In this document: piece by piece, positions 30,732 through 56,818 of the stretch
How the letters are laid out: every line of letters begins with the position of its first letter
Position numbering within the stretch: position 1 is the stretch's first letter
DNA from: Parolsenella massiliensis
GTDB taxonomy: Bacteria > Actinomycetota > Coriobacteriia > Coriobacteriales > Atopobiaceae
DNA: 64,000 nucleotides
Reading direction: 5' to 3'
NCBI RefSeq assembly: GCF_900143685.1
Contig: NZ_LT671675.1
Location: 409,111 to 473,110 of the forward strand
The notes under the pieces: generated by a model
The model's database searches: none
What the model was told of the DNA's origin: nothing
The model's input: the letters and a program-made list of their open reading frames with translations, nothing else
Program-made: the position numbers and the translations under genes

Positions 30732-30780
30732 CACTTTAGTTTGCTAAAGTCGTTGACGTGTACTTTAGCAAACTAAAGTG
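30732..30780. promoter_or_regulatory. Double palindromic operator of the amino acid ABC operon
   Basis: CACTTTAGTTTGCTAAAGT (30732-30750) and its exact reverse complement (30762-30780) are 19-bp arms around 11 bp. Each arm is itself a dyad, ACTTTAG-N4-CTAAAGT, so there are two operators with centres 29 bp apart. They lie 43-91 bp upstream of the binding-protein ATG, over the expected promoter. The regulator is unknown. Confidence 0.8.
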
Positions 30781-30844
30781 GCGAGTGCAAAGTGCGACAC
30801 AAAGATGAAACGTTTGCGGATGCGAATCGCGGGCTCGCGCGGTT

Positions 30845-30938
30845 GTCCTTTATTTTCAGCTTCGTTGCATTTCTCGCCTCTCGTTGGCGCTTTGGGCAAC
30901 GAAGCGGCTGTAATGCATGGAACCTGAAAATAAAGGAC
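30845..30938. repeat. 94-bp hairpin element, copy A
   Basis: GTCCTTTATTTTCAG (30845-30859) pairs perfectly with CTGAAAATAAAGGAC (30924-30938). Inside, CTTCGTTGC (30860-30868) pairs with GCAACGAAG (30896-30904). It resembles copy B at 32047 in length, termini and internal GCATT, and the two flank the endonuclease-like gene. Confidence 0.8.
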
Positions 30939-31047
30939 ATTAACTGGCGCCGCGGGCGTCCGAGGTGAGAAGCGCCGTCCCCCGATTTTGTGTCTCTACC
31001 GTGCACGGGCGCTGCCATACTGCTCCCACGCCGCGGAAGGGAGCGCC

Positions 31048-32025
31048 ATGATCACGCCCGTTGCCTTGAGCCATAGAACCGCCTGGCTCTATCACCATTC
31101 GGCGGGCCGCGAGGTCGTGCGTCGGCGCGTGGATAGCTATGGGACGTGGGACGAGGGTCTGGGCGAGAGGGGCGTTGCCGTTCGCGTCAGAAGGTTTCTC
31201 CTCGATTGCGGCGTCCCTGAGCACGAGCTTGGCGCGCTGGACGTCCTCTCGTCTCGGACGTACGAGCGTGGAACGGGCGCGGACTTTCGCTTTCATGTGC
31301 TGGGCGGGAGGTCGTGGGAGGGACTCCTCGCCCATGCGGCGCCCGACGTCTACGTGGCCGACGAGCCGCTTTGCCTTGTCCAGGCGGCCACGTGGATGAG
31401 CGAGCTGGAGCTTCTCGAGTACGCGTTTGAGCTGCTCGGGGACTACGAACAGGTCCTGGGCGAGAACGGCTGGACGTATGTCGAGCGCCCACGGCGGCAC
31501 ACGGAGAGGTCGCTGGCCATCGCCCTCGATGGGCTGGCGGGCGTCCGCGGCGTGGCCATGGCGCGTCGTGCGCTGAGCAGGGCGTGCGAGGGCTCGAGGT
31601 CCCCGATGGAGACGGCGTTGGCGATGATGGTCGTGGCGCCGCGCTCGCTTGGTGGCCTGGGGTATTCCGGGGCCGTCATGAACGAGCGCGTCGACGTGCC
31701 TCGTGAGCTGCGTAGGCATTACTCGTCGCCCTACTTTGAGCTCGATGTGTTTGCGACGCGTCACAATGCGGGCCTCGAGTACGACGGCGACGAGCACGCG
31801 AGCCTCGGGCGCCGTACGCACGACGTCGACCGGGCGAGCGCGTTGGGTGACATGGGCTACGAGGTGCGCAACGTGACGGCGCGGCACTTCTCGCGCCAGC
31901 TCGAGCTGCATCGGGTGCTTGCGTGGTTTGCCGATCGTCTCGGGCTGCACATCGACATGGACGCAGACTTCCAGCGCAGGCAGAACGCCTTGCGGGAGTT
32001 TGCCATCCGCAGGTGGCGGAGGTAG
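31048..32025 (+). CDS. DUF559/Vsr-like endonuclease-fold protein
   Basis: In this 325-residue protein the C-terminal 110 residues fit the PD-(D/E)XK fold of DUF559/Vsr-like nucleases: SPYFELDVFATRHNAGLEYDG carries the D and E, followed by DEHASLGRRTHDVDRASAL and MGYEVRNVTARHF. The N-terminal 200 residues (AWLYHHSAGREVVRRRV, DVLSSRTYERGTG, APDVYVADEPLCLVQAA) resemble the promoter-binding halves of AbiEi-like proteins, with weak confidence. Such genes are multicopy in Coriobacteriia and their role is unknown; defence, repair or mobile-element function are all possible. ATG 31048 follows GGAAGGGAG. It is bracketed by two 94-bp hairpin elements. Confidence 0.65.
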   Translation: MITPVALSHRTAWLYHHSAGREVVRRRVDSYGTWDEGLGERGVAVRVRRFLLDCGVPEHELGALDVLSSRTYERGTGADFRFHVLGGRSWEGLLAHAAPDVYVADEPLCLVQAATWMSELELLEYAFELLGDYEQVLGENGWTYVERPRRHTERSLAIALDGLAGVRGVAMARRALSRACEGSRSPMETALAMMVVAPRSLGGLGYSGAVMNERVDVPRELRRHYSSPYFELDVFATRHNAGLEYDGDEHASLGRRTHDVDRASALGDMGYEVRNVTARHFSRQLELHRVLAWFADRLGLHIDMDADFQRRQNALREFAIRRWRR

Positions 32026-32046
32026 GCGCGTGCTGTTCTCGCACTT

Positions 32047-32140
32047 GTCCGCTATTTTCAGAAGTTTCGCATTGCGTGCGCTCCACGGCCAAAATCGGCG
32101 GTGGGATGCGCGAAGTGCGAAGTTTCTGAAACTAAGGGAC
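32047..32140. repeat. 94-bp hairpin element, copy B
   Basis: The left arm 32047-32071 (GTCCGCTATTTTCAG onward) pairs with the right arm 32116-32140 (ending CTGAAACTAAGGGAC) with about five mismatches over 25 bases. Copy A has the same length, the same GTCC/GGAC ends and the same TATTTTCAG and GCATT words. It starts 21 bp after the endonuclease-like gene. Confidence 0.75.
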
Positions 32141-32236
32141 GCGCGGGGCGCCGCAACGCGGTCGTGTCGGGCGTCGCGCCGGGCATCCGTACGGGGCACC
32201 GGCCGCCGCGTAATAAGCTGTTAATAAAATAAGGGA

Positions 32237-32264
32237 TTGACATCGCCGCGCGTGACGCGAGAAT
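32237..32264 (+). promoter_or_regulatory. Promoter of the leader/hydratase transcript
   Basis: A consensus TTGACA (32237-32242), 16 bp, then GAGAAT (32259-32264). It would start a transcript near 32271 with a leader of about 270 nt before the hydratase gene. No competing gene lies between. Confidence 0.55.
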
Positions 32265-32321
32265 GGATGGCACCCAAAAGAGGGGAGCCCGCGCGAGGCG
32301 GGCGCAACGAGAGGAAACGTC

Positions 32322-32366
32322 ATGTTCAACCCGCAAGATCGAATTATTACCAGCATTATTCGCTAG
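32322..32366 (+). CDS. 14-codon leader peptide
   Basis: ATG 32322 after GAGAGGAAACGTC encodes MFNPQDRIITSIIR and stops at TAG. Four of fourteen codons are isoleucine ATT, in two pairs flanked by arginine codons. Two hairpins and a strong intrinsic terminator follow within 85 bases, all upstream of the hydratase gene. This is the layout of a translation-dependent attenuator. Whether it senses isoleucine, another metabolite bound by the nascent peptide, or general translation cannot be read from the sequence. Confidence 0.6.
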   Translation: MFNPQDRIITSIIR

Positions 32367-32385
32367 GGCGGGTTGCCATACATTG

Positions 32386-32409
32386 GCTGCCCGTCCGATG
32401 ACGGGCAGC
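32386..32409 (+). promoter_or_regulatory. Leader hairpin with an alternative pairing
   Basis: GCTGCCCGTC (32386-32395) pairs perfectly with GACGGGCAGC (32400-32409) around CGAT. Its left arm can instead pair with CGGGTTGCC (32369-32377), which lies just after the leader-peptide stop, with one mismatch and one wobble. The two structures exclude each other. Confidence 0.55.
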
Positions 32410-32420
32410 GCTGGTACGTG

Positions 32421-32451
32421 CCGGTTGCTGTCAGACAGCGACCGGTTTTTT
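32421..32451 (+). terminator. Intrinsic terminator inside the leader
   Basis: CCGGTTGCTGT and ACAGCGACCGG form an 11-bp stem with a 3-nt loop and six T directly after. It lies 93 bp upstream of the hydratase ATG and downstream of the promoter, so it should act as a conditional stop. Confidence 0.85.
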
Positions 32452-32543
32452 GTTGAGCCGGGACTGCCCGTCGAGAAGCGAATGATGCGAGCGGCCGCAC
32501 GCCGCACTTCCACGACCACGCTTACTCGATAAGGAGACCCACC

Positions 32544-33353
32544 ATGTCCAACGTCACGCTCAACTGCCGTCAGCAGGCTCTCGCCGAAGCCCTCTACCAG
32601 GCCTATCGCAACAACTTCTATGGTCTGGAGAACACGCCGCTCGCCATGGCCGACTGGGAGGGCGTCGTCACCGACGACGACACCGCCTACGCCGTGCAGG
32701 ACGCCGTCATGGCCAAGAAGCTCGGGCCCGTCGCGGGCTACAAGGTCTCGCTCACGAGCAAGGAGACCCAGGACATGTTCGACTCCGACTGCCCGCTCTA
32801 CGGCGCGCAGGTGGCCGAGCGCTTTGTACCCGCGCCCGCTACGGTCGAGCTCGCGCACCTCAACGAGCCGCTGCTCGAGTGCGAGCTGTGCTTCACGGCT
32901 AAGGTCGACCTCGACGCCTCGATGACGCTCGAGGAGCTGCTTTCCAACTGCACCGTGGCCGCCGACATGGAGGTGCCCGACTCCCGCTTTGCGAGCTGGT
33001 TCCCCACGCTGTCCAAGTACCTCGTCATGAGCGACTGCGCCGTGGGTGGCTATGTGGTCTACGGCACGCCGGTCGACGGCTCCGAGCTCACGGTCGAGGG
33101 CATGGCCGGCTACACCGGCACGTGCTACCATGACGGCGAGCTTGTGAAGCAGGGCGCCACCTCAGAGATCCTCGGCAACCCCGTGAACTCGCTGCAGTGG
33201 CTCGTGGGCAAGCTCGCCAGTCAGGGCAAGCGCTTCTCCCGCGGCATGCACGCCTCGGTGGGCACCGTGTTCGTGCCGCCCGCGCTCACTGCCGGCACCT
33301 GGCGCGTCGAGTTCGACGGCCCGTTTGGCGCAGTGGAGCTCACGGTGAAGTAG
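32544..33353 (+). CDS. 2-keto-4-pentenoate hydratase (MhpD) family protein
   Basis: This 269-residue member of the fumarylacetoacetase/hydratase superfamily has GPVAGYKVSLTSKE near the N terminus, the metal-binding ECELCFTAK, and the C-terminal NSLQWLVGKLASQGK. Relatives hydrate 2-hydroxypentadienoate in meta-cleavage of aromatics or decarboxylate related keto acids. The natural substrate here is unknown. AAGGAGACCCACC precedes ATG. It lies behind the attenuator-like leader and 312 bp before the molybdenum hydroxylase genes, with a terminator between, so it is probably its own transcript. Confidence 0.8.
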   Translation: MSNVTLNCRQQALAEALYQAYRNNFYGLENTPLAMADWEGVVTDDDTAYAVQDAVMAKKLGPVAGYKVSLTSKETQDMFDSDCPLYGAQVAERFVPAPATVELAHLNEPLLECELCFTAKVDLDASMTLEELLSNCTVAADMEVPDSRFASWFPTLSKYLVMSDCAVGGYVVYGTPVDGSELTVEGMAGYTGTCYHDGELVKQGATSEILGNPVNSLQWLVGKLASQGKRFSRGMHASVGTVFVPPALTAGTWRVEFDGPFGAVELTVK

Positions 33354-33665
33354 CCAGGGCGTGCCGCGACGTACGCGCGCGGCGGGCGTCGGATGGCGGG
33401 GCGCTGCGGTCCCGCCGGGCGAGGCCCGCGCGCGAGTGGCGGCGCGTGGCGTCGTTATCGCACAAATAGGACAACGAATTGTGGCCCAGAAGCTGTGGAA
33501 TTAGACGCGCAGGTATCGCGTACCTGCGCGTTTTGCTTTAGGATTCATGTGTAATCCCAACCTTGAGATGCGCGGCCCCAGTGATGGGTCCTTGACGCGC
33601 GGCGGATTCACGCCCGCGCGTCGGCTGGTTCGGCGCTGCCGGATACGCGCGAGCGAAGGAGAGAC
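33354..33665. other. 312-bp intergenic region with terminator
   Basis: No gene is seen. It contains the hydratase terminator at 33505-33534 and, after it, about 130 bp that must hold the promoter of the molybdenum hydroxylase operon. I cannot place clear -35 and -10 boxes. Confidence 0.5.
33505..33534 (+). terminator. Intrinsic terminator after the hydratase gene
   Basis: ACGCGCAGGTA (33505-33515) pairs with TACCTGCGCGT (33521-33531), 11 bp with a 5-nt loop, then TTTTGCTTT. Confidence 0.85.
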
Positions 33666-56783: not shown

Positions 56784-56818
56784 AAGCCTGCAAAAGGGAC
56801 TGTCCCTTTTGCAGGCTT
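56784..56818. repeat. Perfect 35-bp palindrome between rsmI and the small basic gene
   Basis: AAGCCTGCAAAAGGGAC is followed by its complement TGTCCCTTTTGCAGGCTT. It resembles a type A repeat in its GGGAC core but has different arms. Lying between convergent genes, it could end both transcripts. Confidence 0.75.

Follow-up and report, generated by a model that had tools for sequence, protein, structure and literature searches.

Vsr/homing-type nuclease genes bracketed by their own palindromes: a candidate enzyme-plus-repeat system resembling REP/RAYT

Genes of a widespread Vsr/DUF559-like nuclease family are associated with a matching pair of long palindromes, the type of which changes from one nuclease locus to another, and the palindrome types found beside the genes are also dispersed without the gene. 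Nuclease and dispersed cognate palindromes are in this sense partners. We read them as a two-part element family organised like REPtrons, namely, a nuclease of the Vsr/homing type together with its own type of palindrome, which occurs both in flanking and in solo copies (probability roughly 0.55). The whole looks like an undescribed enzyme-plus-repeat system, REP/RAYT-like in its organisation and with an unrelated enzyme.

Bacteria commonly carry short palindromic repeats, and to our knowledge REP/RAYT is the only kind that has a dedicated flanking enzyme gene. A family of nucleases with type-specific palindromes of their own would add a second solution, unrelated to the first. It would provide dozens of natural enzyme-site pairs for recognition tests, and a starting hypothesis for the many members of a gene family annotated as 'hypothetical protein', for example in Collinsella aerofaciens. 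It also suggests that homing-type nucleases could live off repeats rather than off introns or inteins.

The window hairpins and their copies

The window, by which we mean the whole 64-kb stretch of DNA that was analysed, carries two palindromes, E1 (30845..30938, minus strand) and E2 (32047..32140, plus strand). A preliminary description of the window had presented them as two hairpins of exactly 94 bp, running from GTCC to GGAC, with long stems and shared words, and this was confirmed by the coordinates, by folding and by a palindrome scan. With 6 nt added on each side, the folding energies are -48.5 kcal/mol for E1 and -56.6 kcal/mol for E2, and the 43-nt arms of E1 are 77% complementary. 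The strictest palindrome threshold gives three matches in the window, E1 among them and E2 falling just under, and none in a shuffled window. The two elements were also said to differ in the middle, which they do, because E1 is the same element as E2 in inverted orientation with a diverged interior. The 64-nt interior of E1 agrees with the reverse complement of E2 at 34 of 64 positions, compared with a mean of 16.7 in palindrome-preserving shuffles, none of 5000 of which was as high.

The window's own genome (G000, a single contig of 2.0 Mb) has two further copies, E3 (190265-190358) and E4 (130790-130883), which brings the total to four only. E2, E3, and E4 are mutually about 80% identical over the full 94 bp. 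The nuclease gene that lies between E1 and E2 is absent from the 13-kb stretches around E3 and around E4. The end of E3 falls within an apparently truncated ORF for a secreted protein, and E4 is flanked by a gene of unknown family and by a LysR fragment, which matches positions 37-208 of the substrate-binding domain only.

Compensating divergence of the arms, which had been proposed from E1 and E2, is weakly supported within the four copies: in 8 of 44 pairs both sides have changed, where shuffles average 5.0 and 24 of 500 of them reach 8. Template-switch correction can also yield paired changes in DNA palindromes. Since the covariation is weak and template switching gives like changes in palindromic DNA, it was dropped as an argument for an RNA.

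The exact element appears to be confined to this genome. Blastn and a covariance model built from the four copies both failed to detect it in any of the remaining 139 family genomes, and the model did not detect it in 396 further genomes of the order either. Pattern scans for the hairpin in public genome and viral collections (viruses, plasmids, other phyla) returned chance matches only, and blastn gave no match in plasmids and a single 30-nt chance match in phages. With the exact hairpin specific to one genome and the nuclease family widespread, the window taken alone would therefore be read as a low-copy repeat beside an unrelated neighbour gene.

Some neighbouring features may be recorded here. 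A gene 42 bp from E4 (6108-6749 of L080) adjoins a gene for a TraG-like coupling protein; its product matches no Pfam family and, judged by eye only, is similar to small proteins of the PD-(D/E)XK-like kind. A weak match of the covariance model in genome G005 (contig C104; about 1160-1240 of L082) is a long hairpin with GAGCTCGCAATGCGC arms, located 3' of an ORF, with no nuclease within the 4 kb read. In the window itself, positions 30732-30780 hold an inverted repeat (CACTTTAGTTTGCTAAAGT) whose 19-bp arms match perfectly across an 11-nt spacer; it lies in the promoter region of an operon for an amino-acid ABC transporter, is conserved in the same-genus genome G001 and has an operator-like appearance. 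A perfect hairpin at 56784-56818 (AAGCCTGCAAAAGGGAC/GTCCCTTTTGCAGGCTT), directly 3' of a long ORF resembling the 16S rRNA methyltransferase gene (rsmI), is probably an ordinary terminator.

The nuclease gene and its family

The gene between the two hairpins (31048..32025, plus strand) encodes a Vsr/DUF559/MTES_1575-like protein of 325 aa; an alternative upstream start, a TTG at 30988, would give 345 aa. The protein matches Pfam MTES_1575 (E 0.0043) and DUF559 (E 0.069) weakly, its scores of 17.5 of 38.2 bits and 13.5 of 20.6 bits being under the curated cut-offs. Across 21 family members the matches are weak but consistent, with MTES_1575 found in 9 and DUF559 in 5. All 90 homologues have residues E188, D233, and E244, and H250 and D259 are nearly invariant, as would be expected for an active nuclease of the Vsr/PD-(D/E)XK type. 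The weak Pfam matches and the conserved catalytic residues favour the initial assignment of the gene to a PD-(D/E)XK-like nuclease. The best match of the family profile in the PDB is 3r3p, 'Mobile intron protein' (E 0.002), which we take to be I-Bth0305I, a Vsr-like homing endonuclease of the EDxHD kind. A single-sequence AlphaFold2 model of the nuclease had a pLDDT of 36, too low for use. The window protein matches no NCBIfam model and no PADLOC model, and the gene matches no transposase family.

Members of the nuclease family are encoded in 128 of the 140 genomes of the bacterial family, and a single genome can have up to about 15 matches. It is found in none of 50,697 phage records, and among plasmids in one large record only, from C. 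aerofaciens, where the gene is annotated as 'hypothetical protein'. In the window, the nuclease gene is a free-standing chromosomal ORF, with no intron, intein or phage setting.

Matching palindromes at both sides of nuclease loci

That the hairpins are unrelated to the nuclease was our first conclusion. It was overturned by the nearest two homologues of that protein, from G135 and G118 (42-43% identical), each of which is bracketed by a hairpin pair of its own, different in sequence. Ninety nuclease loci were therefore examined. In 49 of these 90 loci, which come from many genera and are the best protein matches, no random sample, a repeat scoring 40 bits or more is common to the left and the right flank; the corresponding figure is 39 of 8,010 for mismatched pairs, in which the left flank of one nuclease locus is combined with the right flank of another. 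With flanks of 600 bp, the two sides match in 44 of 90 nuclease loci and in 1 of 67 control genes, drawn mainly from the window's genome and its relatives. Of the 90 nuclease loci, 30 have strong palindromes of at least 60 bp, by thresholds of our own choosing, at both sides; none of the 67 controls does. When the loci are reduced to 60 at under 60% protein identity, 33 retain matching flanks. A detectable left-right match is missing in about half of the nuclease loci. A strong palindrome or a matching flank of any kind is found in 81 of 90; the paired figures are preferred to this number because a single-sided palindrome is also found at about a tenth of the control flanks.

A weak match of the E1-E4 covariance model in genome G125 provides a blind and unplanned confirmation, since it directly adjoins a nuclease gene. 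The match had been counted as unrelated, an interpretation that was overturned by the gene beside it.

A chance neighbourhood, in which genome-specific repeats happen to lie beside a common gene, would fit the occurrence of the exact E1-E4 family in one genome only and the two of its four copies that have no nuclease nearby. It is hardly credible in the face of the contrast with both the mismatched pairs and the control genes, a signal that persists in the non-redundant loci. Of the earlier suggestions, that of a nuclease and its recognition hairpins gains strong support at the level of association, dozens of divergent family members having their own matching palindromes at both sides. The expectation that the element always pairs with this gene family holds for the arrangement, which recurs, and fails for the exact sequence, which is specific to one genome.

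At nuclease loci the median palindrome length is 114 bp, and the median distance from the stop codon of the nuclease gene to the start of the downstream palindrome is 39 bp. In the clearest loci (at least 60 bits), the two flanking copies are direct repeats in 23 cases and inverted in 10. Because both orientations occur, the flanking palindromes are no classical transposon ends. The variable orientation, together with the lack of any Rfam match at the gathering score that covers a palindrome, also speaks against the proposal that the hairpins are guides or other RNAs.

The position of the downstream palindrome would suit operators for autoregulation of the nuclease, or mRNA terminators or stabilising hairpins, which chance duplication scattered later, and effects of REP hairpins on mRNA have been reported (PMC3733652). 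We regard such a regulatory origin as improbable: two flanking copies and at least 20 dispersed ones of a single type per genome exceed the needs of one operator, the control genes do without paired palindromes, and the orientation varies. A defence or toxin-antitoxin unit, with the hairpins serving as RNA antitoxins, guides or self-protection marks, would be in keeping with the fast diversification and the many paralogues per genome, as these would suit a conflict system. We find it comparably doubtful, given that neither PADLOC nor Rfam yields a match, that the orientation is variable and that solo copies are dispersed; the earlier suggestion of a defence island unit likewise gained no supporting match from PADLOC.

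In genus g29, some nuclease loci carry tandem arrays of palindromes (in the flanks of L226, L268, and L269). The spacing in these arrays is about 85 bp, and the units are joined by ACCTGCGCGG-like words.

Palindrome types and a shared core

The outer arms differ locus by locus, as in GGTTACGTACAC, GAGGGTATGTACACC, and ACAAGTGCGTAACT. Palindromes of different loci are alike (at least 40 bits) in 21% of the 80 pairs whose proteins are more than 60% identical, and in none of about 2,770 pairs below 60% protein identity. The interiors have more in common. The word ACCTGCG or its complement is present in 17 of 49 palindrome interiors, compared with 6 for the top 7-mer in 20 shuffles, and CGAGAAG is a second word common to interiors. 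This sharing of an interior core by many types suggests one palindrome superfamily, the outer arms of which may diversify along with the enzyme, with no significant correlation between protein and palindrome similarity under 60% protein identity (P 0.10).

Solo copies and the role proposed for the nuclease

A search with 19 palindromes against their 13 source genomes showed that the types flanking a nuclease gene are also dispersed without the gene. The 141-bp type of G125 occurs at 20 or more places in each of three genomes (G125, G130, and G120), and in G137, a complete genome, solo copies of two types were found at five or more places per type. At the 20 solo loci that were read, there is no nuclease within about 1.5 kb. 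Many of the solo copies occupy short gaps between long ORFs. Scattering of the elements without relation to the gene had been named beforehand as an argument against a link between the two; solo copies are indeed scattered, and the scattered type is the type that flanks a nuclease.

We give about even odds to the proposal of a class of mobile repeat in bacteria whose spread and sequence homogeneity are driven by a Vsr/homing-type PD-(D/E)XK nuclease through its action on the long palindromes that belong to it, in convergence with REP/RAYT, with several pairs per genome and throughout the family. The nuclease would bind its own palindromes, in the form either of long dyad sites or of structures that become exposed during replication (cruciforms or single-strand hairpins), and would cut at or close to them. 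The palindromes could then reach new places through copying by break repair or template switching, and repair could also correct the copies against each other, thereby keeping them alike.

Relation to known systems

REPtrons consist of an enzyme gene, cognate flanking palindromes and non-autonomous dispersed copies (PMC3733652, PMC8266576, PMC8049555). Both in these (REP/REPIN with the RAYT/TnpA_REP tyrosine transposase) and in the present case, the enzyme gene is flanked by its own palindrome type, solo copies are dispersed in intergenic gaps, the types are many and there is little sign of horizontal spread. RAYTs are inherited vertically (PMC8049555), and the occurrence of the nuclease family, absent from phage records and present in one plasmid record only, follows a similar pattern. 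The enzymes are different, however: that of REPtrons is an HUH/Y1 tyrosine transposase, whereas here it is a Vsr/PD-(D/E)XK-type nuclease. REPtrons have a GTAG tetranucleotide beside the palindrome, and no constant GTAG is seen in the flanks of 30 palindromes here. The unit is 20-40 bp long in REP and mostly 65-150 bp here and, unlike in REPtrons, there are several nuclease-palindrome pairs per genome. By membership the system is not a REPtron, as the enzyme is no HUH transposase and the GTAG tag is missing. A role of the nuclease in spreading or maintaining its palindromes is inferred. The CGTC repeats and other palindrome families appear to have no dedicated enzyme gene (PMC3733652).

The nuclease domain of I-Bth0305I, the EDxHD homing endonuclease with the closest solved structure by profile, is linked to DNA-binding parts, and the enzyme forms a dimer on its target, which is nearly 60 bp long (PMC3943268). 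Unlike I-Bth0305I, the nuclease described here is found outside introns, inteins and phages, and it has cognate dispersed palindromes. We know of no such palindromes described for homing endonucleases. DUF559 and MTES_1575 proteins have the same catalytic region, the window protein scoring under their cut-offs, and we are aware of no reported association of these families with palindromes. MITEs and insertion sequences likewise comprise short, palindromic, non-autonomous repeats that are related to the flanks of a longer, gene-bearing unit. Unlike them, the present elements have no transposase, no target duplication at solo copies and a variable orientation of the flanking copies. A limited search of the open-access literature found no earlier description of a nuclease system with cognate palindromes.

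Gains and losses between related genomes

In the window, both hairpins and the nuclease gene belong to a variable segment (30815..33450, no strand assigned) that is absent from G001, which has about 156 bp there; the segment also holds a hydratase-like ORF (32544-33353). A clean insertion of E1, nuclease and E2 relative to G001 was considered and not found, the variable segment being larger (2.6 kb). Species of genus g29 differ in whether they carry the nuclease: at locus 222 two genomes have it and five lack it, and at locus 223 six have it and two lack it. A unit of about 420 bp, with a palindrome whose arms are like those of another nuclease locus, is found at one site in three of seven genomes. 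Nuclease and palindrome units have thus been gained or lost between related species. The variable g29 sites and the palindrome copies that were compared showed neither a clean boundary of insertion nor a target duplication nor a shared insertion motif.

Gain and loss of the nuclease at fixed sites between species, and a homing endonuclease as the nearest solved relative, would both be consistent with a homing-type composite cassette, in which the nuclease and both palindromes, as its ends, move together and solo copies are remnants left after loss of the gene. We consider such a cassette unlikely, since the flanking copies are direct as well as inverted, the solo copies far exceed the gene-bearing loci in G130, G120, and G125, and the variable segments end elsewhere than at palindromes. 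On the preferred reading of a REPtron-like family, the nuclease and its palindromes are two parts, and the palindromes would be copied by repair at cuts.

Other repeats were seen at the g29 sites that lack the nuclease. At locus 223, two genomes (L266, G141:C9; L267, G139:C4) have the same flanking genes and, between them, another palindrome, ATAAAAATGCTCTATCGGACGG, in four copies, together with an apparent remnant of the old type, as if one palindrome type had been replaced by another. At locus 222, again in two genomes (L260, G143:C28; L261, G140:C10), tandem short repeats are arranged around GGCGTCAAAATGACGCC, a palindrome of yet another kind.
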